Positions 2,621 through 31,265 of a stretch of 35,288 bases of DNA are shown here, piece after piece. Numbering within the stretch: the stretch's first letter is position 1; every line of letters begins with the position of its first letter. Made by a program: the position numbers and the translations under genes. The DNA is from Clostridia bacterium. GTDB taxonomy: Bacteria; Bacillota; Clostridia; Christensenellales; Borkfalkiaceae. The notes under the pieces were generated by a model, which was not told where the DNA came from, made no database searches, and was given only the letters and a program-made list of their open reading frames with translations. The stretch is from the NCBI GenBank assembly GCA_021204585.1, contig JAJPZC010000127.1, positions 1 through 35,288 on the forward strand. Direction: 5' to 3'.

Positions 2621-4603
2621 TCACTCTGCCTGCTCATCCTCCGCGCCACTTTCCTCCCTGCGGCCGTCTTCCGCAGGCTCCTCTATGGGCTCTCCTGCGG
2701 TCTTTCCGGGCTCCTCTATGGGCTCTTCTGCGCCCTCTCCAGGCTGCTCTATGGGTTCCTCTGCAGGCCCTTCCGCAGCGTCATCTGCAGGCTGTTCTGC
2801 CGGCTCTTCCGTGGATTCTTCCATAGCAACATCTGCAGATTCAGAAGACACCCCGGCACTCTCTTCCGTGAGATCTTGTACGGCCTTCACAGGCTCTTCT
2901 GCAGTCTCTTCCGGCTCCTCTATGGGCTCCTCTGCTGCCCCTGTAACCTCTTTTACAGGCTCTTCTGAAGACTCTGTAACCTCTCCCAAGGGCTCTGCGG
3001 GTTCTTGTGCAGGGGTCTCCTCCGGGTTTGTAATGACCTCTGGAGCGGCTGTATATGCGTCCTCCACGAGGACATCATCAGGCTTATCGGACTCCGGTTC
3101 TGCCGCAGACGGGGCGGAAGCGCCTTCGGATTTTGGACAAACAATTGTTTCAACTCTGTCCGGGGCGGCGATTGGAATGAATTCCTGCGCCATATCCGGG
3201 GGTGCTTGCACTTCTATGAACTCCGGAGTGAGGCCTTCCGGAGGCACGGGGATGTAGTCATGGGCGAAGTCTCCGAAGCCGTCCTCGTCCTCTTCGTCAT
3301 GGTGCGCCTCCGCTTCGGGCCGGAGCGCTTCCCCGGTGCGGGGCATGAGGGATGCAGGCAGCGGCGTGGGCTCATCCTCTTCTTCTTCCTCGTCCTCCGT
3401 CAGGGGGTGAGGGGCAGAGGGGATGTCTTTGTCCATGCCGGCCATGTTGTACAGGTTCCTGAGTTGTTCCGGATCTGAGTTCTCTGCGGACAGAAGAAGC
3501 GAGTTATAGCGGGTTGTGGAGTTCTCCAGGCTGTCCTTGATGCCGTCTGACATGCTCTCGTTCATCTCTTCGAGGGCAAGGTCTGATTCCACTATGTACT
3601 CCACGGAGCCGAACTGGACTGTGGCGAAGACGGCCTCCCAGGCGGGCTCTTCGAGGGAGTTCTCGAAATCCTCGTTGAGGCTGTCCATGAGCAGCTCATA
3701 CAGGGTGCGCCTGTTCCTCTTGAGCTTTACAACGGAGTTGATGAGCATGAAGAGGGCCATGGCGGCCACGTAGACGCATATGATGGTGCCGAGGACAAGG
3801 ACGGTCGTGACTGCCGTCCTGCTGTCCGAGAACCTTGTGAGGAAGGTCATGAGGAGCGTCAAGACGGAGACCATGGCATCCGCCATGTTGATGTTGCGCA
3901 CGGCGTGGGTTATCTTGTCATGACGGCCCCTGGTGTATATGAGGTTGGAGACGGCCAGGACCACCTTTATGACGGTGTAGATGCCCGTCACTATGGATAT
4001 GAGCAGGTGGTGGCGGAAGCCGAAGTTTGCCTGGGAGAGTAGCTCCCATAAAAGGAAGTTCAAGCCTATGGTGAAGGCCAGCATCATGATGGCGGCCATG
4101 CGGTACACTCTGAGCTGGGCGTCCTCGCGGCTGTTGTCATCGAAGTGCCTGGTCACGGTGAGGGCCCTTGCGGATATGCTGGAGCGCATCACTATGAGCA
4201 TGACGTAGTATATGAACATCGAGATGCACCACCACTCCATGTACATGAAGCCGTACACGGCGTTGAAGACGGCGAATCCGATGTTGATTGCCATGGAGAG
4301 CAGCATCGTGCATATGGTGCGGAAGTCGTAGTTCTTCACGAAGCTGTTGACGTACTTGCCGTGGCCTTCGGACCACTGCTCCAGCTTCGGCCAGTACTTC
4401 ATCAAAAGCACTATGATTGCATACGTCCCGTACCCTAAAAAGAGGGCGGATATGAACAGGCATATGAGCCCGGATGTGGGAAGCCCCGTGAGGAAGCAGA
4501 AGATGGTGAACAGGCCGACGGCAACAAAAATAAGCACTGCCATGCAGGTTGCATACAGACTCGGCCTTGTTATCTTCGTAAACAGCTTCCTTATAAGATT
4601 CAT
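2621..4603 (-). CDS. multi-TM membrane protein with a long acidic Glu/Pro-repeat C-terminal tail
   Basis: Likely start is MNLIRKLFTKITRP at 4603, not the ORF-track start at 4681. The N-terminal half is hydrophobic; the C-terminal ~200 aa are rich in EEPxEEP-type repeats. Confidence 0.75.
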   Translation of the reverse strand: MNLIRKLFTKITRPSLYATCMAVLIFVAVGLFTIFCFLTGLPTSGLICLFISALFLGYGTYAIIVLLMKYWPKLEQWSEGHGKYVNSFVKNYDFRTICTMLLSMAINIGFAVFNAVYGFMYMEWWCISMFIYYVMLIVMRSSISARALTVTRHFDDNSREDAQLRVYRMAAIMMLAFTIGLNFLLWELLSQANFGFRHHLLISIVTGIYTVIKVVLAVSNLIYTRGRHDKITHAVRNINMADAMVSVLTLLMTFLTRFSDSRTAVTTVLVLGTIICVYVAAMALFMLINSVVKLKRNRRTLYELLMDSLNEDFENSLEEPAWEAVFATVQFGSVEYIVESDLALEEMNESMSDGIKDSLENSTTRYNSLLLSAENSDPEQLRNLYNMAGMDKDIPSAPHPLTEDEEEEEDEPTPLPASLMPRTGEALRPEAEAHHDEEDEDGFGDFAHDYIPVPPEGLTPEFIEVQAPPDMAQEFIPIAAPDRVETIVCPKSEGASAPSAAEPESDKPDDVLVEDAYTAAPEVITNPEETPAQEPAEPLGEVTESSEEPVKEVTGAAEEPIEEPEETAEEPVKAVQDLTEESAGVSSESADVAMEESTEEPAEQPADDAAEGPAEEPIEQPGEGAEEPIEEPGKTAGEPIEEPAEDGRREESGAEDEQAE

Positions 4604-4649
4604 GAAAGCTTCTGCTCCCTCATCATTCCGGCCTTTTGCGGCGTCCGGA

Positions 4650-4745
4650 ATGCATTGCGTGCACCCATGCACTGCGTGCATGCACAGCTACAATATAATG
4701 CATTGCGTGCACCCATGCACTGCGTGCATGCACAGCTACAATATA
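4650..4745. repeat. two perfect tandem copies of a 48-bp unit (4650-4697, 4698-4745)
   Basis: atgcattgcgtgcacccatgcactgcgtgcatgcacagctacaatata occurs twice. Each unit contains the inverted repeat CATGCAC-TGC-GTGCATG and yields a TATAAT at its end. Confidence 0.95.
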
Positions 4746-4962
4746 ATAGAATACCAAAGAGGGGCCCGCTTTGCAATAGCAAAGGGTCTCTTTCCGCCGA
4801 AATATCATGCAAACATCATGCAGCGGGGCCTGCAGGCGGGCGCAAAGCGCCGGTCAGAGACCCTTCCGGGGCCCTCATCGGCGGCCTTTGCAAAGCCGTC
4901 CGGCATGCCGTGCAGGCCGCAAAACCGGCTGGCTTGCAGATTGATCCGGACATGCCTGCAGG

Positions 4963-6929: not shown

Positions 6930-7979
6930 CTACTCGAACAGCTTACTCAGTTCTTCAGGACTAGGCAGCATGCCTTCATATTCCTTAGGAACCGTTGCGC
7001 ATGTAGAATAGGTGGCTATTGCCAAAGGGCAGTTTTCCATACTCAACGCATATCTTACATCAGTTTCATCCTTATCCCTGCAGATTATGATACCTAAAGG
7101 GTAGTTCCCACTGGGGTTATAGAACTGATTATTCACGGCGTCGAGATAATACTTCATCTTGGATGCGTATTCAATCGCAAACTTCCTGACCTTCAGCTCA
7201 ACAACGACATAACACTCCAGCCTCAACTGATAAAGAAGGATATCGACACGATGTGCCTTGTTCCCTATCGTAACACTGACCTGATGCCCATGATAGGAAT
7301 AATCAGGTCCAAACACTTCTAATAACTTATCTACGTTAGAGATGAGCTGCTTCTCAAGTTCTGCTTCAGAATAATCATCCGGCAAATCCAAAAAGCCGAA
7401 ATCATAGTTCGCCCTTACAGAAAGAAGTGCCGGAACCTTGATTTCCTGGGGCAAAGTCATATCAAAGTTGGTCGTACTATTCATAGAGTTTTCGTACATC
7501 TTCTCTTTAATATGAGAGATCAGTACACTCCTTGACCAATGATACGTCAATGTCATGCGGACATAGTATTCCCGTTCAGCCTCATCCTTGCACTTGTCAA
7601 TAATAACGTCGTTGTTACTCCAGCTAATGCTCATAACAAGAGGCAGCAACCTTTCAGAATTGTGATATGTTCTATAAAATTTGCGCATCTGCCAAAGATT
7701 CTTTTCAGATAATCCAGACACACCAGGCATGCGCCTCTTAAGTTCCTTAGAAAGAGTCTCTACAACACGCCGACCCCATCCATATCTATCCTGTACCAAG
7801 CAAATCTTTTCACCATTCTCGTAATAGTGCTTAACTAATTCCGTATTAACTGAATAACAAACCCTGCGATAATCCCTTTCGATCTCATCTGCAAGGGCAT
7901 TAATTACAGGGAAAAACTTAGGATCGTCTTCATCATTCTTCACGACAAGATCCATACTCTTCTTACTCTTCCTACTCAT
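6930..7979 (-). CDS. DUF1016/YhcG-family PD-(D/E)XK nuclease domain protein
   Basis: N-terminal DUF1016-type region (YYENGEKICLVQDRYGWGRRVVETLSKELKRRMPGVSGLSEKNLWQMRKFY) and nuclease core HRVDILLY...CYVVVELKVRKF. Confidence 0.9.
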   Translation of the reverse strand: MSRKSKKSMDLVVKNDEDDPKFFPVINALADEIERDYRRVCYSVNTELVKHYYENGEKICLVQDRYGWGRRVVETLSKELKRRMPGVSGLSEKNLWQMRKFYRTYHNSERLLPLVMSISWSNNDVIIDKCKDEAEREYYVRMTLTYHWSRSVLISHIKEKMYENSMNSTTNFDMTLPQEIKVPALLSVRANYDFGFLDLPDDYSEAELEKQLISNVDKLLEVFGPDYSYHGHQVSVTIGNKAHRVDILLYQLRLECYVVVELKVRKFAIEYASKMKYYLDAVNNQFYNPSGNYPLGIIICRDKDETDVRYALSMENCPLAIATYSTCATVPKEYEGMLPSPEELSKLFE

Positions 7980-17229: not shown

Positions 17230-18450
17230 ATGACATATCTCCACAGAGCACTGGAAGATGCATTTATGGAAGCACAGAGCGAAGCTCCTGCAACGCTTCT
17301 GTCCGGGCCGAGGCAGGTCGGCAAGACAACAATGCTGGAACATCTTATGGAAGGCACAGACAGAAAGTTTGTGTCCCTGGATTATGCAAGCAATCTGGAC
17401 ATGGCCCGGAAAGACCCGGATGGATTCTTCCAGATTTTCTCCCCTCCTGTCCTTGTGGATGAAGTTCAGTATGCTCCCGGCTTGTTCAGACAGATAAAAA
17501 TAATAGCAGACAAGACTCACCGGAACGGAGATTTCTGGCTTACAGGATGTCAGCCCTATGCACTTATGAGAGGCAAAACAGAATCATTAGCCGGCAGACT
17601 CAGTCTTCTTAATATGATGCCGATGTCCCATTCTGAGATATGCGGATACGAGAATACTGCATTCGTTCCTGAAGCCGCAGCATTGATGTCCCGCCACTGC
17701 ACCCCTATGACAATGCCGGAAACATTTCAGATGATATTTGACGGGGGAATGCCCAAACTTGTTTCCGGAGAGGCCAAAAACCGAAAAAAGTTCTATGATG
17801 ATTATATTCAGGCCTATATAGAAAAGGATCTGAACTATCTTTCCCTTGGAATAGACGGCCTGGGCTTCTCAAACTTTATTCATGTTGTTGCAGCACATGT
17901 AGGACAGCTGGTCAATGTGTCAAATCTTGCAAAAGAAGCTGAAGTGAGCCGGGAAACAGCAAACAGATGGCTGGAACTTTTGGAGCAGCTGAATATTATC
18001 TTCCTGTTAAGGCCCTATTCCAACAGCCTGCTGAAACGCACTATCGGAACGCCGAAACTGTATTTCCATGACACCGCCCTTGCGATTCAGCTTATGGGCT
18101 GGGAAAATCCTGCGGTATTGCAGAACTGCGCACTGAGCGGGGCATACTTTGAGAACTATGTCATAAGTGAAGTGTACAAGAGCTGGATTAACACAGGCAG
18201 CAAGCCGAAACTGAACTTCTACCGTGACAAAGATGGAAATGAGATAGATCTCATTATAGAAGAAAACGCCTGCCTGCACCCTTTGGAAATCAAGAAAACC
18301 GCCACCCCGTCATCAGATATGATATCTGCATTCAAATGTCTTAAAGTGCCCGAGGCATTCACTATAGGGAAAGGCGGAGTAATTTGCAATGCTTCAGAAC
18401 TGTCTGCGTTTGATGCCAATAATCTCATTATTCCTGCATACATGATATAG
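17230..18450 (+). CDS. AAA+ ATPase with DUF4143 C-terminal region
   Basis: Walker A LLSGPRQVGKTT, Walker B PVLVDEVQYAP, FWLTGCQPYALM, then the DUF4143 region with RDKDGNEIDLIIEENACLHPLEIKKTA. Confidence 0.92.
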   Translation: MTYLHRALEDAFMEAQSEAPATLLSGPRQVGKTTMLEHLMEGTDRKFVSLDYASNLDMARKDPDGFFQIFSPPVLVDEVQYAPGLFRQIKIIADKTHRNGDFWLTGCQPYALMRGKTESLAGRLSLLNMMPMSHSEICGYENTAFVPEAAALMSRHCTPMTMPETFQMIFDGGMPKLVSGEAKNRKKFYDDYIQAYIEKDLNYLSLGIDGLGFSNFIHVVAAHVGQLVNVSNLAKEAEVSRETANRWLELLEQLNIIFLLRPYSNSLLKRTIGTPKLYFHDTALAIQLMGWENPAVLQNCALSGAYFENYVISEVYKSWINTGSKPKLNFYRDKDGNEIDLIIEENACLHPLEIKKTATPSSDMISAFKCLKVPEAFTIGKGGVICNASELSAFDANNLIIPAYMI

Positions 18451-18845: not shown

Positions 18846-19253
18846 TCACAGATACATCCAGGACTGCGGTGCCCTGGATACTCCTGTGGCCTTGAGCTCA
18901 ACAGGCTCTTCATATGCCGTTATGCGGCCCAGAAGGAAGGCATGGGCAATCTCTTGGCCGTGGAAATACTGCCTGTATGCGGCCTCTGTAAGGCCTCCCA
19001 GAGCTTTTGTGCGCTCCCACAGCTCCTCCACGGGGAGCTCCAGAAGCCCTATGACCTCTGCCTCTCCCATGATATGCTTTGCGGGTGCGGTCTCGTATAT
19101 AAGCATCCTGGAGACAGGGCGCCGGGGCACGGAGCGGCGGTATTCGCATGTCTTGGTGCCGTTTAAAATAGCCCGGGCATATGCCGGGCGGACGGATATG
19201 AGTATGGTGCTTTTGAGGCCCTCTACGGGCGTTGGATCTTGCATAAGTCTCAT
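18846..19253 (-). CDS. ASCH domain-containing protein
   Basis: STILISVRPAYARAILNGTKTCEYRRSVPRRPVSRMLIYETAPAKHIMGEAEV. Confidence 0.88.
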   Translation of the reverse strand: MRLMQDPTPVEGLKSTILISVRPAYARAILNGTKTCEYRRSVPRRPVSRMLIYETAPAKHIMGEAEVIGLLELPVEELWERTKALGGLTEAAYRQYFHGQEIAHAFLLGRITAYEEPVELKATGVSRAPQSWMYL

Positions 19254-19263
19254 GAAACAGGCT

Positions 19264-20127
19264 TCAGGCCAGGCCTAAAGCAACCATTATAGCATTAACG
19301 ATGATGCCTGCCAGGATGGCTGTGAGGTACAGGACTACGATAAGGATTATGTTCCTGCGGATCTTCTTGCCGTTGGACAGAAGGACCACGAGGCCGAGGC
19401 CTGCGTTGCAGCAGAGGCCTGCCACCATTGAGCCGAACATGATGCCGCCGTTCACGAAGGCGCCCGTTATGATGACGCTGGAGGCGCATGTGGGTATGAG
19501 GCCTACGAGGGCGGTGACTATGGGCTGCACGTAGGGGCCGCCTATGAAGGAAGAGGCTATGGTGTCCTCGCCTATGGCCTCTATAATGTAGCCGAAGGCG
19601 ATGTTGACCACAAGGAGCCAGAAGGCAATCTTCAAGGCCTGCCAAAGGGGCGAGACGAGATAGTTGTACACGTTCCCTTCATCCGGCTTTGCCGTAAGAC
19701 GGGCGTGCACAAAGCGCTCCAGGGGCATCTCCTGCAAGGTTTCCTTGCGCATGACGGCGTTGGCTATGTAGCCTACAAGGATGGCGAAGACGAACTTGAT
19801 GGCAAGGAGCGGCAGGACGGACTTGATGCCCTCGCTGTCTCCGAGGAGGACTACCAGTGCCTCGTCTGACGTGGAGATGAAGACTGCGAGGATTGTGCCT
19901 GTGCGGATGATGCCGGAGTCATAGAGTTTTGCGGCCATGACAGAAAAACCGCACTGAGGCACAAGGCCTGTGGCGGCTCCTACCACGGGAGCTATGTATC
20001 CCTGCATGACTTTGCGGCTGCGAAGGAGTGCCGTCCTGTTCTCTATTATCTCTATAAGGATATAGACAATGAATAGGAATGGCAGGACGTTGACGGTGTC
20101 CAGCAGCGCATCCGTGAAAATTTCCAT
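19264..20127 (-). CDS. putative manganese/arsenic efflux-type permease
   Basis: GAATGLVPQCGFSVMAAKLYDSGIIRTGTILAVFISTSDEAL and PIVTALVGLIPTCASSVIITGAFVNGGIMFGSMVAGLCCNAGLG internal repeats. Confidence 0.8.
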   Translation of the reverse strand: MEIFTDALLDTVNVLPFLFIVYILIEIIENRTALLRSRKVMQGYIAPVVGAATGLVPQCGFSVMAAKLYDSGIIRTGTILAVFISTSDEALVVLLGDSEGIKSVLPLLAIKFVFAILVGYIANAVMRKETLQEMPLERFVHARLTAKPDEGNVYNYLVSPLWQALKIAFWLLVVNIAFGYIIEAIGEDTIASSFIGGPYVQPIVTALVGLIPTCASSVIITGAFVNGGIMFGSMVAGLCCNAGLGLVVLLSNGKKIRRNIILIVVLYLTAILAGIIVNAIMVALGLA

Positions 20128-20134
20128 CCGTCCA

Positions 20135-20183
20135 TAAAAAATCCGGCGTCACAACAATTGTAATATGGTGCTGCAGCCGGATT
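20135..20183 (-). terminator. rho-independent terminator or possible attenuator between the ABC ATPase and the permease gene
   Basis: Minus strand AATCCGGC (20183-20176) and GCCGGATT (20147-20140) followed by TTTTTTATGG, ending close to the permease ATG at 20127. Confidence 0.65.
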
Positions 20184-20238
20184 GAAACTCAAATATCTTT
20201 CGCATATCCCCCGCTGTTTCGCTGCGGGGCCTGTCTTG

Positions 20239-21501
20239 CTACTTCTTCTTTTTGGCCTTGGGGGCAAGCTGCTTCAAAATCTCGCGCTCCTCAACGAAGG
20301 ACTTTGGCATCCTGTCTGCATCCGCATGCTTGGTCTTCTGGTACCCCTCGTCTTTTGCAAGGATGGTAAGCCTCGTTTCGCCGTCAAAGAGATACAGGTG
20401 CTCCGTATCCGTGTTGACCTGGATCTCGTGGTCCTTGAAAGGAGCCCCTTCGTCCCAGTCTCCGGACCAGTTCGCGCCGACTTCCTTGAACTTGACCTTC
20501 ATTATGTTGCGTCCTGCGGAGCACTCCGTATAGATGGCGTTGCCTGCGTACTCGTTCTGTATGGCCGTGGCCTTGAACATGCCGCCCTCTTCCACTATCT
20601 GCGTGTCCTCCGGACGGAGTCCTAAGATAACCTTCCTGTCCTTGTCCAGATAGTCCTCCAGGTTCTCTATCCTGGCCTTTATCTTGTCGCTTACGGGAAT
20701 GTCCCCGAAGTCACACCGTACCACAATCTTGCCGTCCTCTGCGGATGCAAGGGTGGCGTTGAAGATGAAGTTTATGGTGGGCTGGCCTATGTAGAATGCC
20801 ACGTATGAGTTGGCGGGATAGTCGTACAGGTTGGCAGGAGTGTCCACCTGCTGCACGAATCCTTCACGGAGGATTACTACCCTTGTAGCGATGGCAAGGG
20901 CATCCTGCAGGTTCCTTGTGGCGTATATGTACGGGGCCTTGGTCCTCATCTGCAGGTTGATTATGATATTGAGCATCTCGGCACGGAGCTTGGTGTCCAG
21001 GCCGGACAGGGGCTCATCGAACATGAACACTTGGGGCTCACGCACCAGGGCACGGCCGAAGGCCACCTTGAGCTTTTCCGACGCAATGAGGTTCTTGGGC
21101 TTCTTGTACAGAAGATCCGAGATGCCAAGTATCTGGGACACCACTCTGACCCTCTCTTCAATGAGCGTCTGGGGAGCCTTCCTTACCTTGAGGCCGAATG
21201 CAAGGTTGTCAAATATTGTGTCGCTGGGGAAGAGCGTGTCTCCCTTGAACACGACGGACACGTCCCTGGCCTTGGGCTCAAGGCTTGTGACATCCTTGCC
21301 GTTTATCTGTATAGTTCCCGAAGACGTGTCATCCAGGCCGGATATGAGACGTATAAGCGTACTCTTGCCGCTTTTTTCCTGTCCCACAACGACAACGAAC
21401 TCATTCTCATCCACTTCCAGATTGAAGTCCGTAATAGCCGGCACGCCAGAGGGGTATATCTTATTGACCGCAGTAAGCTTGAGACTGCTCATAACCTGCA
21501 C
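20239..21501 (-). CDS. MalK/UgpC/MsmX-like ABC ATPase with degenerate Q-loop, signature and H-loop motifs
   Basis: MalK-like throughout (SLKLTAVNKIYPSG...FDEPLSGLDTKLRAEM...GFVQQVDTPANLYDYPAN), with Walker A GQEKSGKST and Walker B VFMFDEPLSGLD. LSGGQ is replaced by LIASE. Confidence 0.88.
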   Translation of the reverse strand: MQVMSSLKLTAVNKIYPSGVPAITDFNLEVDENEFVVVVGQEKSGKSTLIRLISGLDDTSSGTIQINGKDVTSLEPKARDVSVVFKGDTLFPSDTIFDNLAFGLKVRKAPQTLIEERVRVVSQILGISDLLYKKPKNLIASEKLKVAFGRALVREPQVFMFDEPLSGLDTKLRAEMLNIIINLQMRTKAPYIYATRNLQDALAIATRVVILREGFVQQVDTPANLYDYPANSYVAFYIGQPTINFIFNATLASAEDGKIVVRCDFGDIPVSDKIKARIENLEDYLDKDRKVILGLRPEDTQIVEEGGMFKATAIQNEYAGNAIYTECSAGRNIMKVKFKEVGANWSGDWDEGAPFKDHEIQVNTDTEHLYLFDGETRLTILAKDEGYQKTKHADADRMPKSFVEEREILKQLAPKAKKKK

Positions 21502-21817: not shown

Positions 21818-21958
21818 GACTGAAGCTGCAGGTTGGATTACCGGACTGAAACTGCTGCAGGTTGGATTACCGGACTGAAACTGCTGCGGGCTGGATTGCC
21901 GGGCTGATGTCGCTGCAGGCCGGATTGGCGGGCTGATGTCGCTGCGGGCCGGATTATT
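21818..21958. repeat. 29-bp tandem repeat, four copies plus a partial leading copy
   Basis: ggactgaaactgctgcaggttggattacc and variants at 21843, 21872, 21901 and 21930; the last overlaps the stop codon of the 21954 CDS. Confidence 0.9.
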
Positions 21959-23996
21959 CCACGGCCTTGAGGCTCTTGTTCATGTCCACGAAGGCGATCT
22001 TCTTGCCAAGCATGAGGGTTACTATGCAGGTGAAGAACATAAGCAGGGCTATGCCCACTATCCACCAGAACCAGGTGAAGCTGGCAAGGGTTCCCATGCC
22101 GATGACGGAGAACAGAAGAAGGATTAAGGGAACGGAGAGAGGCAGACCGAACAGGATGCCTATGAGCGTGTCTATGTACACTTCCTTGTATATGTAATTG
22201 GAGACTTCAAAGTCCACATAGCCCAGGACTTTGAGAGATGCAAGCTCCCTTTCCCTCTCGCTGATGTTTATATTCGTGAGCGTGTATACAACGAGTACGG
22301 ACAGGAGGCCAGCAAAGACTACAACCACCACGGAAACGCCGGTTATGGCAGCGGAGGCTATGCCGCCGAACAGGCACAGGTCCAGAAGTGAGAGGCCAAC
22401 CATAACCAGGGCTGTGGCTATTGCCACGGAGACTACAGTCATGGTGAAGCGCAAAGGATACCGGAGAACGTTGCGGACCGTGGACTTCTGGTTGAATGAG
22501 AGCTTGTTCCAGATGGCCGGGAAGTACTCCAGGAACACCTTCTTGCCGGCTTTGGGGGTCTTCGGCCTCAGAAGGTCCGCAGGCTTCTCTTTTGTTTCCT
22601 TCATACCTGCCCAGATGGTGCCGCCCAGTGTGGCCACTACTATCACGGCGGCCGTTATGAGGAAGAACAGCAGGCCGGAATATACTGTTGAGGCAGGCAT
22701 TGCGAGGCAGTAATTGAATATGAAGTATATGAGCGATGAAAGGCCCATGCCTACGAAGTACCCGCCTGCTACTCCCACGGCCAGGGCTGCCATGGCGAAC
22801 AGCACGTACTTGGAAATGATGTTGCCGGAAGAGTATCCGAGGGTCTTGAGGCAGGCTATCTGGTTCCTTTCCTCCTCCACGAGGCGGGACATGGTGGAAA
22901 GGACAATGAGCACGGTGACAAGCAGGAAGACAACCATCATGATGTACCCTATGCCCTTGACGTCCTTTGCGTACGTGTACATGGACAGGAAGGAATAGTT
23001 CTCGCTGAGGGTTATGAACTGCACATCGTCTCCTATGGCCTCTGCAAGGGATGCGGTGTCTGCATCTATCTCGGCGTCATACTCGCTGCTGAAGGCGTCA
23101 AAGACGGTGCGGTCTATTAGCGTTGCGTACATGTCCATGGTGCCAAGCAGGGGCCCTGCGGAGAGGCCCGTGAGGCCCGTTATAACCTGCTGCATTGCAG
23201 GGCTGTACCCTTCAAGAGAGATCTCCGGGATGTATGAAGACGGCAGATACAGGATGTTCTGGAGGTCTATAAGGTCATTGGCTGCGGTGACAGATACGGG
23301 GGTGTCCGAATCCAGCCCGTTGAGATAGCTGGGCTCTCCGTCCAGGGCGAACGTGAGGGGCGAAGCCCACTCCTGCGATGCCGTTACGTCCAGGTCTGTG
23401 TATGTGAGAAGCTCACCGAGGTACTGCCTGGAGGTGTCATCCAGGCCCTCCGTTGAGCCGTTCTGCCTTGAGAGCTGGTCCAGGATGTCTATAAAGTCCA
23501 GGTGGATGGTCTCAAGGGCGCTGTATCCTGTGATGGCATTGTCTGCCGTCTCAAAGGCAACGGGGTTGGATGCGTTCCCTGCGGCATCATATACGGCTTC
23601 TGTCTCAGGGGTGTTGACGGTCATGTTGTCTGCGGAAAGGCCGTCATTGAGAGAGTCTAAGAAGTACAGGCGGGTGAGCTGCCCGTACGGGTTGTCTTCT
23701 GTCTTGTTGATGTATACGTCTATTGAGGCGCCTGTCTCCACGCAGGAGAAGAGACCTGTGTCCTCTGCGGCCCGGATCTGGTCCTCCGTAAACCCGGAGT
23801 CCGATGTGCTCTTGGCGATGAAGTCTGACACGTTCTGGGCCTGGTAATATGAGGTCATGGACGTGGTCATCTTGGTCCCTGCGGAGCCTAAGCCGGATAT
23901 GAAGCCTACAGCAATTAACACTATGAGTATTACTGAAATGAACCTTGCGGCATGCTGCTTGAACATCCGCGCAAGTGTCTTGAAATACGTTTTCAT
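21954..23996 (-). CDS. FtsX/MacB-type ABC transporter permease (paralogue 1)
   Basis: N-terminal TM plus large extracytoplasmic domain plus FtsX-like TM blocks (VEEERNQIACLKTLGYSSGNIISKYVLFA; ISERERELASLKVLGY). Confidence 0.88.
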   Translation of the reverse strand: MKTYFKTLARMFKQHAARFISVILIVLIAVGFISGLGSAGTKMTTSMTSYYQAQNVSDFIAKSTSDSGFTEDQIRAAEDTGLFSCVETGASIDVYINKTEDNPYGQLTRLYFLDSLNDGLSADNMTVNTPETEAVYDAAGNASNPVAFETADNAITGYSALETIHLDFIDILDQLSRQNGSTEGLDDTSRQYLGELLTYTDLDVTASQEWASPLTFALDGEPSYLNGLDSDTPVSVTAANDLIDLQNILYLPSSYIPEISLEGYSPAMQQVITGLTGLSAGPLLGTMDMYATLIDRTVFDAFSSEYDAEIDADTASLAEAIGDDVQFITLSENYSFLSMYTYAKDVKGIGYIMMVVFLLVTVLIVLSTMSRLVEEERNQIACLKTLGYSSGNIISKYVLFAMAALAVGVAGGYFVGMGLSSLIYFIFNYCLAMPASTVYSGLLFFLITAAVIVVATLGGTIWAGMKETKEKPADLLRPKTPKAGKKVFLEYFPAIWNKLSFNQKSTVRNVLRYPLRFTMTVVSVAIATALVMVGLSLLDLCLFGGIASAAITGVSVVVVVFAGLLSVLVVYTLTNINISERERELASLKVLGYVDFEVSNYIYKEVYIDTLIGILFGLPLSVPLILLLFSVIGMGTLASFTWFWWIVGIALLMFFTCIVTLMLGKKIAFVDMNKSLKAVE

Positions 23997-24008
23997 GCCG
24001 CCCTCCTT

Positions 24009-24944
24009 TTACCATTCCAGCTGATCCACGGGCATGGGGTTGGGGTTGTCCTCTATGGACTCCACCTGCCCGGATCTTACGTATATTACCTTGTCCGCTA
24101 TCTCACGGATTGCGGAATTGTGCGTTACAACCACTACCAGCTTGTTGTGCTTTTTTGAGATGTTGTACAGGAGCTCCAGTATGTTCTTGCCCGTCTTGTA
24201 ATCCAGGGCGCCTGTGGGCTCATCGCAAAGAAGCAGTTTGGGATTCTTCGCTATGGCGCGGGCTATGGACACCCTCTGCTGCTCTCCGCCGGAAAGCTGC
24301 GCCGGGAAGTTGTTCATGCGCTCCTCAAGGCCTACGTTCGTGAGCACCTCTGCGGGATCCAGATGGTTCTTGCATATCTCCACCGCTATCTCTACGTTCT
24401 CAAGGGCCGTTAAGTTAGGCATGAGGTTGTAGAACTGAAAGACGAAGCCTACGTCATTGCGCCTGTAGTACGTAAGACCCTTGCGGTCCAGCTTGGTTAT
24501 GTCCTTCCCGTCCAGCACAATATCCCCGGATGTGGCATTGTCCATGCCTCCGAGAAGGTTAAGCAAGGTTGTCTTGCCTGCGCCGGAGGAGCCCAGCACT
24601 ACTACGAACTGGCCGTTCTCCAGGTCAAAGGAGACGTCCCTTAGTGCATCTACGACAATATCTCCGGTGACGTACTGCTTTCCTACGCCCCGGAGTGAGA
24701 GAAACCCTCTGTCTTCTGTATCATCTGCCGACGGATCCAGGCCCGCCATTTCATCTGTCTTCTCTGGATCCAGGCCCGCCTTGCCACGGCGTATCTTTCT
24801 CGTTCCCATCACTTCAGCCTGCTCCTGTTTTCCTTCCGCAGCAATCCCGGCTGCGGCCAGCTCCTCTTCCTTCTGTGCGGAACCCTTTCCGCACCCGGAG
24901 CCGTTCTCTTTATTGGAATCTCTTAAACCAAATATACGCTTCAT
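24009..24944 (-). CDS. MacB/LolD-type ABC transporter ATPase (paralogue 1), with long N-terminal extension
   Basis: [56 protein letters not shown]. The start could be internal. Confidence 0.93.
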
Positions 24945-27238: not shown

Positions 27239-29197
27239 TTACTCCACTGCCTTGAGGCTCTCGTTCATGTCTATGCGCACCATCTTGCGGCGGAGCATCA
27301 TGGTAACCAGGAAGGTAAACAAGAGTATAAGGGCGATGCCTACTATCCACCAGAACCAGGTGACGCCGAGAATGGTGCCCATGCCGAGGATGGAGAAGAG
27401 GATTAAGTCTATGGGAAGGGACAGCGGCATGCCAAATATGATGCCAACTATCGCATCTATGTACACTTCCCTGTTTATGTAACCGCAGACTTCGCGGTCC
27501 GTGTAGCCCAGGACCTTGAGGGTGGCAAGCTCTCTCTCACGCTCACTGATGTTGATGTTGGTAAGCGTATATACAACCAGTATGGCCAGGAGTGCCGCGA
27601 AGATGACCACCACTATTCCTATGGCCGTGACCGAGGCAGAGGATATGCCGCCGAAGAGGCATATGTCCATTAGGGCAAGGCCTACGTTTACAAGTGCCGT
27701 GGCAAAGGCCACAGAGACTACGGTCATGATGAACCGGGGCAGGTAGCGCAGGACGTTGCGGAAGGTGGACTTGTACTTGAAGGACAGCCTGTTCCAGATG
27801 AACGGGATGCGCTCCAGGAAGACTTTCTTGCCGGCTTTGGGAGGCTTCGGCCGAAGAAGCACCGCCGGCCTCTCCCTGGTCTCCTTCACTCCCGCCCATA
27901 TGGTGCCGACTATCATGGCAGCAAGGATTACAACCACCGTTATGACGAAGAAGGTTACGCCGGGGTTAGCCGTCATGGCTGGCATGAGGAAAGTGTAGTT
28001 GAAGACGTAGTAGAACAGCGTGGAGACGCCCAGCCCCACAAAGTAGCCCACTACGGCACCCACTATCATGGCAACAAGGGCAAAGAGGACGTACTTCATT
28101 ATGGTGCTCACGGATGAGTACCCAAGGGTCTTCATGCAGGCTATCTGGCTCCTTTCCTCCTCCACCATCCTGGTCATGGTGGAAAGAACCACGAGGACGG
28201 TGACAAGCAGGAAGATTACCATGAGCAGGTACCCTATGTAGAGGACGTCATCCGCATAGCCCTTCAAGGCATAGAATGAGTAGTTCTCATACAGCGTTAT
28301 AAGCTGCGCATCAGAGCCTAAGGCTGCGGAAAGGACCTCCGTCTCCCTCGTTATCTCCTTGTCATACGCATTGCTGTATGCGTCAAACTTGCTCCTGTCC
28401 GCAAGCGAGATGTGCAAGTCCATCGTGCCTATATAGGACTTAAGGAGCGTGGGGATGTAGCTTGAGGGGATGTACAGGATGTTCTCAAGGTCTATGAGGG
28501 CGTTGACCTCGTTGACAGTATTGGGCGTGTCCACGTCCTCTCCGTTGAGGTAGCTGGGCTCTCCGTCCATTGCGAACGTGAGGGGCGAAGACCAGACCTG
28601 CGTTACGGTTACCGTTACGGGAGATATGAGGTACTTCAGGGCACCCAGATCCATTGTGGTGCCGCCCTGGTCTGCAAGCTGTTCCAGTATGTCCGCGAAG
28701 TCCAGCTCCACTGTCTCAAGGGCATCATATCCCTGTATCTTGTTGTCTGATATCTCGCATGCCACGGGGTACTCTTCATCCCCTGTGGCGTCATACGCGG
28801 TCTTGACTATTGGCGTGTTGACGCCTATGTTGTCTGCATCCAGGCCGTCATTGAGGGAATCCAGGAAGTACAGGCGGGTGAGCTGCCCGTCCGGGTTCTC
28901 GTCCGTCTTGCCCAAGTATACGTCCATGGAGGCGCCTGTCTCAACGCAGGAGACGGCATCTATGGCCTCCACGGCCTCCACCTGCTCCTGGGTAAAGTTT
29001 CCCGAGGTGCTCTTGGCGATGAAGTCCGAGACGTTCTGGGCAACGTAATAATCGGACATGGATATGTATATCCTGTCCGCCGCTGAACCGACGCCGGCTA
29101 TGAACCCGACCGATATCAGCACCATCAGGATGAGAGACAGGAACCTGGTGACGTGCCTTTTGAACATCCGGCCGAGAGTCTTCAGATACGTTTTCAT
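27239..29197 (-). CDS. FtsX/MacB-type ABC transporter permease (paralogue 2)
   Basis: Aligns throughout with the 21954-23996 product (MKTYLKTLGRMFKRHVTRFLSLILMVLISVGFIAGVGSA...). Confidence 0.88.
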   Translation of the reverse strand: MKTYLKTLGRMFKRHVTRFLSLILMVLISVGFIAGVGSAADRIYISMSDYYVAQNVSDFIAKSTSGNFTQEQVEAVEAIDAVSCVETGASMDVYLGKTDENPDGQLTRLYFLDSLNDGLDADNIGVNTPIVKTAYDATGDEEYPVACEISDNKIQGYDALETVELDFADILEQLADQGGTTMDLGALKYLISPVTVTVTQVWSSPLTFAMDGEPSYLNGEDVDTPNTVNEVNALIDLENILYIPSSYIPTLLKSYIGTMDLHISLADRSKFDAYSNAYDKEITRETEVLSAALGSDAQLITLYENYSFYALKGYADDVLYIGYLLMVIFLLVTVLVVLSTMTRMVEEERSQIACMKTLGYSSVSTIMKYVLFALVAMIVGAVVGYFVGLGVSTLFYYVFNYTFLMPAMTANPGVTFFVITVVVILAAMIVGTIWAGVKETRERPAVLLRPKPPKAGKKVFLERIPFIWNRLSFKYKSTFRNVLRYLPRFIMTVVSVAFATALVNVGLALMDICLFGGISSASVTAIGIVVVIFAALLAILVVYTLTNINISERERELATLKVLGYTDREVCGYINREVYIDAIVGIIFGMPLSLPIDLILFSILGMGTILGVTWFWWIVGIALILLFTFLVTMMLRRKMVRIDMNESLKAVE

Positions 29198-29204
29198 GCC
29201 TTGG

Positions 29205-29963
29205 TCACCACTCCAGCTGCTCTACGGGCATAGGATTCGGATTGTCCTCTATGGACTCTATCTGCCCGGATCTTATGCGTATTACCTTGTCCGCTATCTC
29301 CCGGATGGCGGAATTGTGCGTTACCACCACTACAAGCTTCCTGTGCTGCTTTGAGATGTTGTACAGGAGCTCTAAGATGTTCTTGCCCGTCTTGTAATCC
29401 AGGGCACCCGTAGGCTCATCGCAAAGAAGGAGCTTGGGGTTCTTGGCAATTGCCCTGGCAATTGAGACACGCTGCTGCTCCCCGCCGGAAAGCTGTGCGG
29501 GGAAGTTGTTGAGACGCTCTGCAAGGCCCACCTTGGTGAGCACGGACCTGGGGTCATAATGGTTCTTGCATATCTCAACGGCAATCTCTACGTTCTCCAA
29601 AGCGGTGAGGTTGGGCATGAGGTTGTAGAACTGGAACACGAACCCCACGTCGTTGCGCCTGAAGTCCGTAAGGCCCTTGCGGTCCAGCTGGGTTATGTCT
29701 TTTCCGTCCAGCACAATGTCCCCGGATGTGGCATTGTCCATGCCTCCGAGGAGGTTTAAAAGGGTTGTCTTTCCGGCTCCGGAAGAGCCCAGGACTACGA
29801 CGAACTGTCCGTTCTCCAGGTCAAAGGAGACGTCCTTCAAGGCGTCCACCACAATGTCTCCGGTAACGTACTGCTTGCCCACGCCGCGGAGTGAGAGATA
29901 CCCTCTTCCCTCCATCTCTTCCGGGCTTAGTCTTGTGTCCCTTGCAGTCTTCTTTATGCTCAT
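29205..29963 (-). CDS. MacB/LolD-type ABC transporter ATPase (paralogue 2)
   Basis: Core nearly identical to the 24009-24944 product. Confidence 0.93.
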
Positions 29964-30093: not shown

Positions 30094-30948
30094 TTAGTCC
30101 TTTGTGTGGGCGTTGTCATCCGTCCCGTCTTTTTTATCCGGCGCAGAGCCAAGCCCCTCCGGCTCATCCATGTCAAACGGATCATCCCCGTCCCCTGCCG
30201 GGCTGTCCCAGTAATGGTCCTTGAAGGGATTATCCTCCTCCGGCGCCTTCTGCACCGGCTCTGCGGGAGCCTTATCTGCACCCTTTGTGAGGTCCGCGGG
30301 CGTGCTTGAGCCGAGGTCAAATACATCGTCCTCCGGGGGCTGGTTCATGCCGAAGATGTCATCCGCAGACACAGCCCTGTACTCCTGGCCGCCTTGAAGC
30401 TTTAAAGCGGGGCCCTCATACTTTGTATGCCTCTTTATCCAGCCTGCCTTTTTGCCGAACAGCTCAAAGAGCGTGTACTTCTCCATCTCGGTAAGACTTG
30501 CCATGTAGACAGGATATATCACGCGGCCGTAGTTGAAAACGAGATATGCGCCGCCCTTTCCGCACAAGCGCGCCTTTTTGGCGCGGCGGTAATACATCTT
30601 GGGATACGGCGTCTGTGCAGACCCGGGAAGCAGGACTGTCACTATGACCCCGTCCCTGTGGAACGAGAAGGTCTGCAGATATGACCCTCTCATGGCCGTG
30701 TTCCTGTACGAGGAGCGCAGCCTCATCCACAGGATGCCTCCGATGATTACAAGCACTATGCAGACTTCTATCAAAAGCAGATAATTGCTCATGGAGTCAA
30801 ACATCATGTACGGAATGAAGAGCCCTACAAATCCCGCAAGGCCCACGGCAAAGAGCACGACAGAGACCACAAACATTCTCTTCGTGACTGCCTTGTGGAC
30901 ACTCACGTCCACCTGTGTCGCCGCTTCTATTGTCTTTCCGTTATACAT
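30094..30948 (-). CDS. two-TM membrane protein with an acidic tail carrying D[DN]xF motifs
   Basis: Likely start MYNGKTIEAATQVDVSVHKAVTKRMF at 30948; tail contains ADDIFGM, DDVFDLG, DNPFKD and DDPFDMD. Confidence 0.72.
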   Translation of the reverse strand: MYNGKTIEAATQVDVSVHKAVTKRMFVVSVVLFAVGLAGFVGLFIPYMMFDSMSNYLLLIEVCIVLVIIGGILWMRLRSSYRNTAMRGSYLQTFSFHRDGVIVTVLLPGSAQTPYPKMYYRRAKKARLCGKGGAYLVFNYGRVIYPVYMASLTEMEKYTLFELFGKKAGWIKRHTKYEGPALKLQGGQEYRAVSADDIFGMNQPPEDDVFDLGSSTPADLTKGADKAPAEPVQKAPEEDNPFKDHYWDSPAGDGDDPFDMDEPEGLGSAPDKKDGTDDNAHTKD

Positions 30949-31180
30949 GACTTCCCATCCCGCCAGGCGCACAAAAGCACCTTGGCCATATATTACCACA
31001 CGCGGACAAAAAGCACAATGCTTTAAGCCCATCGCTGTTTGACTTTTTGCGCCGGAACGCTTACAATACACCCGTAACAGCCCATGCGCTGCACGGCATT
31101 ATAATACACGCCAAAAGTGCAGGTTCTGTGTAAACCGGGTTAAAGTTTGGGCATAATCCCGCCCAAACAAAGCCAAATAT

Positions 31181-31265
31181 GCCGCCGTGGCGAAACTGGC
31201 AGACGCACTGGATTTAGGATCCAGCGGAGTGATCCATATCGGTTCGAGTCCGTTCGGCGGCACCA
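31181..31265 (+). tRNA. tRNA-Leu (anticodon TAG), CCA encoded
   Basis: gccgccg...cggcggc-a-cca acceptor stem; anticodon arm ctgga-tttagga-tccag; T-arm ggttcgagtcc. Confidence 0.97.

Follow-up and report, generated by a model that had tools for sequence, protein, structure and literature searches.

The closest described relatives of the protein considered here are B. subtilis MsmX (6yir) and C. thermocellum Clo1313_2554 (7x0q), which were its best matches in both profile and Foldseek searches and with which it shares fold, length, residue numbering and an NBD joined to a TOBE domain. B. subtilis MsmX is also encoded by a solitary gene, retains a canonical Q-loop, signature and switch, and receives the coupling helix of the permease in its Q-loop region (PMC7658222). 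In ABC dimers, the signature and D-loop contact the nucleotide of the partner chain (site layout in PMC12038006). ABC ATPases with altered catalytic and switch residues, in which ATP binding is expected to persist, include the exporters MsRv1273c/72c and TM287/288, where one composite site is intact and the partner is encoded there (PMC12038006, PMC5216877). In MsRv1273c/72c, the altered-switch chain gives its signature to the consensus site (PMC12038006). Among sugar and nucleoside importers, a degenerate second NBD occurs in the CUT2 systems RbsA and NupO (PMC11466899), where it shares a polypeptide with another NBD and no longer has the Walker A Lys, unlike the separate, Lys-retaining protein described below. 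A search of the available literature for MsmX or MalK pseudo-ATPases found none.

The gene of interest lies in a 35,288-nt contig from a Clostridia bacterium (GCA_021204585.1, JAJPZC010000127.1), the whole of which was analysed and is called the window here. A reading frame on the minus strand is open throughout 20239-21501, in agreement with the original prediction that the frame is intact, and would encode 420 amino acids from a GTG or 417 from an ATG at 21492. The ATG is probably the true start, because it is preceded by AGAGGTG and its product begins at M1, a position invariant across 47 aligned orthologues. The resulting gene (20239..21492, minus strand, stop codon included) encodes a 417-aa protein, referred to here as pseudo-MsmX, composed of an NBD, a TOBE-type regulatory domain and a short Lys-rich tail. 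Profile searches identified it as MsmX/UgpC-type at 281 bits, well below the curated NCBIfam UgpC cut-off of 432. An AlphaFold2 model built from a 47-row alignment had a mean pLDDT of 92.2 and an MsmX-like fold, and its top Foldseek match was B. subtilis MsmX 6yir (TM 0.75/0.85, E 2.3e-40). The window protein therefore has the NBD, the TOBE-type regulatory domain and the fold that characterise MsmX/MalK/UgpC ATPases.

Residues are numbered here as in B. subtilis MsmX, in which the key positions are K43, Q83, the signature at 135-139, D159/E160 and H193 (PMC7658222). Walker A and Walker B with its catalytic Glu had been predicted to be kept, and K43, D159 and E160 are indeed present in the window protein. 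Walker A reads GQEKSGKS (G37-S44, 21361..21384, minus strand, as are all motif coordinates that follow), with K43 kept but S39 and G40 replaced by Glu and Lys, and Walker B D159-E160 is encoded at 21013..21018. The three predicted substitutions were also found: Gln to Lys at Q-loop position 83 (21244..21246), LIASE in place of LSGGQ at 135-139 (21076..21090), and His to Arg at switch position 193 (20914..20916), where Lys prevails in relatives. The changes exceed this triplet, since Walker A S39, D-loop N164 (Gly within SGLD, 163-166, 20995..21006), Q-loop Y85 (Asp) and H-loop D194 are altered too.

We compared these positions across 47 sequences from the genus clade and 58 canonical relatives, and the contrast between them does not reflect chance. 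Gln at 83, [LM]SGGQ and the switch His occur in 58/58 canonical relatives, a set that was defined by these motifs themselves, the independent evidence being the tree. Every clade protein keeps Walker A K43 and Walker B D159 (47/47 for each) as well as an aromatic residue, Tyr or Phe, at position 13, while position 160 is Glu in 30 and Asp in 17. None has the LSGGQ signature (0/47), which is absent from all 54 non-canonical proteins; LTAAQ is what most often stands in its place. All 47 likewise lack the switch His, with Lys in 44, Arg in 2 and Pro in 1 at this position, and position 83 varies (Arg 25, Lys 7, Gln 7, Gly 6, Ser 1, Asn 1). S39 is changed in 47/47, Y85 has become Asp, Asn or Ser in 47/47 and D194 has become Asn or Ser in 47/47, and D-loop position 164 is Gly in 46/47 clade proteins versus Asn in 58/58 canonical ones. 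R104, K74 and D77, residues with a link to permease function in MsmX, remain largely conserved. The clade consensus is thus LTAA[QA] with Arg or Lys at 83 and Lys at 193, and the window protein is one of its more divergent members.

In MalK, Walker A S39 touches the D-loop of the partner chain. Judged from the motifs, the changes are selective: the trans-dimer contacts (signature, D-loop and S39), the switch and the coupling pocket (Q83 and Y85) are rewritten. The retained residues are those predicted to contact ATP within a single chain, and the rewritten ones those expected to serve closure of the ATP-sandwich dimer, transition-state stabilisation and permease coupling.

A full-length orthologue is found in 54 of 61 same-genus genomes, the window genome counted, with the other 53 proteins 43-74% identical to that of the window; one further genome (G020) has a piece at a contig edge, and short edge fragments in G005, G023 and G047 may belong. 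The 47 aligned genus proteins form one clade with SH-aLRT support of 100, or 99 when the motif columns are masked. Among its members are loci of MAGs bearing the name Candidatus Coproplasma and of other uncultured Clostridia, and by inference the window genome belongs to the same genus. Among related pairs of pseudo-MsmX genes, dN/dS (NG86) is 0.21 for the window and its nearest relative G045 and 0.07-0.17 for the other pairs. The degeneracy is consequently not the genome-unique, scattered set of substitutions that the original prediction had named as the sign of decay; it is best described, from the tree and the substitution rates, as a conserved monophyletic subfamily under purifying selection. 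The idea that LIASE/K/R itself marks a conserved subfamily holds for the degenerate clade as a whole, while the exact triplet is not conserved.

Relatives outside the genus give an indication of where this subfamily came from. The long-tailed canonical MsmX proteins (~470 aa) of sister genera are close relatives that have canonical motifs and a longer charged tail, and in genus g7 of the same family such a protein adjoins the same ArsP_2 gene that adjoins pseudo-MsmX (L176, L177, L188). Since the g7 gene occupies this position and the C-terminal tails of the two types share sequence, pseudo-MsmX is best read, on sequence and gene order, as the positional orthologue of the canonical solitary MsmX of other family genera. 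When 161 genomes of the order were searched, each of the 22 top loci examined from other families proved canonical, with scores of at most ~439 bits, versus at least 600 for full-length clade members. Differently degenerate MsmX-type copies occur in other genera of the family (L164, L175, L180, L210, L211, L212, L215), for example LTALQ with Glu, LSAGQ with Asn, and LTSIQ with the switch His kept. These copies were left out of the genus clade, some being long branches of unsure placement, and they suggest repeated or early loss of the motifs. Canonical MsmX-type ATPases of ~630-650 aa (L170 901-2787, L171 3259-5148, L182 1982-3922) with an MSGGQ signature and a C-terminal extension of ~250 residues were noted as well.

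The gene directly downstream of pseudo-MsmX (19264-20127, minus strand) encodes an ArsP_2/NF037962 permease according to Pfam and NCBIfam. As originally predicted, there is no sugar permease in the vicinity, though this ArsP_2-family permease is a conserved neighbour. Of the 33 genus loci in which both neighbours were called, 31 have it as the next gene downstream in the same orientation, and 26 have a divergent upstream gene, usually QueH. We considered an operon with the ArsP_2 permease and judged it unlikely, given the hairpin between the genes in most relatives and the promoter-like sequence ahead of the permease gene in some of them, and it is weakened further by the same adjacency occurring with canonical MsmX. 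In the window, the 111-nt intergenic stretch (20128..20238, minus strand) carries a CCCCGC/GCGGGG hairpin beyond the stop codon. Relatives carry GC hairpins with T runs in this place, a hairpin following the stop codon in most of them, and the gap is usually 40-140 nt. A pattern scan of this strand of the window called no terminator-like site, the hairpin there being without a clear T run, and Rfam returned no RNA element match between the two genes. From this arrangement we infer that the pseudo-MsmX gene is monocistronic in most of the genus and that the ArsP_2 permease is probably its own transcription unit.

In the window, as in the nearest relative (G045) and unlike most of the genus, an FtsX/MacB-type ABC pair lies between QueH and pseudo-MsmX. 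The window holds two such pairs of FtsX permease and MacB/LolD-type ATPase (21954-24944 and 27239-29963), with permeases 61% and ATPases 91% identical, and the pairs flank QueH and an ornithine/aspartate carbamoyltransferase-like gene. Elsewhere in the window, a single gene at 6930-7979 encodes a DUF1016_N and YhcG_C protein of the PDDEXK nuclease family, and the opposite strand carries an AAA_14/DUF4143 ATPase gene (17230-18450) close to a small gene with an ASCH domain (18846-19253). Near the start of gene 2621-4681, a short direct repeat in tandem (4640-4760) shows up as a repeated peptide in antisense frames, and a predicted 325-aa protein without a Pfam match (30094-31071) has a tRNA gene (31181-31262) beside it on the other strand.

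An important question is whether the organisms carrying pseudo-MsmX have a sugar transporter for it to serve. Most other genomes of the genus contain canonical MsmX paralogues and CUT1 importers, with canonical copies scoring 425-476 bits with the UgpC model in some sister genomes. In the window genome (G000), G045 and a third genome (G033), the same model found no canonical MsmX, the next ABC ATPase scoring at most ~163 bits, so the canonical paralogue that the original prediction had proposed to look for elsewhere in the window genome does not appear in this 93% complete assembly. No MalF/MalG-type (CUT1) permease pair was found in any of the three, and the four BPD_transp_1 matches in G000 occupy three sites and all have an ATPase of some other type next to them. 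With G045 93% complete (6% contaminated) and G033 77% complete, canonical MsmX and CUT1 permeases are likely absent from all three genomes. A search with SBP_bac_1 gave no match even in genomes with canonical MsmX and is therefore uninformative on the absence of sugar importers. The clade thus differs from B. subtilis MsmX in also occurring in genomes without CUT1 permeases.

A kept fold, lost catalytic motifs and conservation by selection are the marks of a pseudoenzyme, and all three are found here. The reading that we favour, with a probability of roughly 0.55, is that pseudo-MsmX is a genus-conserved, ATP-binding protein derived from a solitary 'multitask' sugar-importer ATPase, with poor or no hydrolysis and a role as a regulator or scaffold. 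Apart from the Walker B Glu, retained by most members, every element that serves ATP-driven closure of the dimer, hydrolysis or coupling to a permease has fixed changes in this lineage, and the elements that hold ATP in a single chain are kept. To judge by its motifs, the protein, either monomeric or a dimer that does not close, would hold ATP or ADP, would hydrolyse it poorly or not at all, and would not drive transport. Its NBD surface and MalK-like regulatory domain could then let it work as a scaffold or as a regulator that responds to nucleotide. That the whole genus, one of gut Clostridia, keeps the gene, even species without a sugar ABC transporter to power, makes some other, likely regulatory, job probable. 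A model for such a role, as an analogy only, is E. coli MalK of the same family, which binds and restrains MalT through protein contacts apart from transport (PMC10427625), although MalK is a working ATPase as well. Two observations run counter to this reading: the catalytic Glu is kept in 30/47 proteins, which simple loss of catalysis would not require, and the permease-linked R104, K74 and D77 are largely kept. No conserved regulatory partner gene was found, the sole conserved downstream neighbour appearing to be separately transcribed. In most genus genomes, an accessory role beside the canonical MsmX/CUT1 importers is possible. Of the functions originally proposed, a nucleotide-binding regulator and a pseudo-ATPase both fit a conserved, monophyletic protein under purifying selection, and the non-catalytic half of a heterodimer is disfavoured for reasons given below.

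More tentatively, pseudo-MsmX may be a transporter ATPase that was converted at its original locus into a stand-alone ATP/ADP-sensing signalling protein, holding nucleotide with a basic switch residue and without an ATP-sandwich dimer, acting in a process unrelated to sugar import and outlasting the permeases of its ancestor.

The kept interface residues, together with the CUT1 importers of most genus members and the finding that MsmX is common to several permeases (PMC7658222), would fit a dominant-negative or occupancy regulator that docks on CUT1 permeases without powering them and so tunes the use of shared MsmX. We consider this unlikely, since the coupling-helix pocket is rewritten and the lineage of G000 and G045 keeps the gene under purifying selection without CUT1 permeases. 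In genomes that have sugar permeases, pseudo-MsmX could regulate them, but retention of the gene in G000 and G045 cannot be explained in this way.

It is also doubtful that pseudo-MsmX joins a canonical MsmX as the non-catalytic subunit of a heterodimeric importer ATPase, so that the transporter would have degenerate sites. Canonical MsmX-type ATPases do lie beside sugar permeases in most genus genomes, and R104 and D77 are largely kept. What disfavours this pairing is that G000, G045 and G033 have neither canonical MsmX nor a CUT1 permease pair, so that no partner is found in them, and that signature and switch are lost in the same chain. In known heterodimers, it is from the chain with altered Walker B or switch that the consensus site receives an intact signature (PMC12038006), whereas here both composite sites would be impaired, in contrast to MsRv1273c/72c and TM287/288. 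The loss of coupling-pocket Y85 in 47/47 proteins also speaks against it.

Less probable again is an active ATPase with alternative catalysis, in which Lys or Arg at 193 and 83 replaces His and Gln and drives another process. The presence of K43, D159 and, in 30/47, E160, and an almost always basic residue at 193, would be consistent with such an enzyme, but no member retains the signature, by which the active dimer is closed, 17/47 have Asp in place of E160, and the window genome encodes no transporter partner. Slow decay of a redundant gene, on its way out in the window lineage, is the most improbable reading, for although the window and G045 pair has the highest pseudo-MsmX dN/dS (0.21, against 0.08-0.12, or about half, for neighbouring genes in the same pair) and most comparisons show pseudo-MsmX diverging more quickly than its neighbours, frames are intact across the genus, dN/dS is far below 1, the proteins are monophyletic, and the Walker A Lys and Walker B Asp are invariant over deep divergence. 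Decay is largely refuted for the genus as a whole. We rejected the acceleration in the window lineage as proof of decay, given that neighbouring genes are more divergent there too and dN/dS is far below 1; constraint seems somewhat relaxed in that lineage and is purifying all the same.

Most of the known degenerate-site ABC ATPases are transporter halves. Throughout the present clade, one and the same polypeptide has lost its trans-dimer, switch and coupling elements while keeping the cis nucleotide pocket. Its persistence in some species that likely have no transporter for it to serve would provide a clean natural test of MsmX-type function beyond transport, and for this gene in this genus the annotation 'ABC transporter ATP-binding protein' is likely to be misleading.
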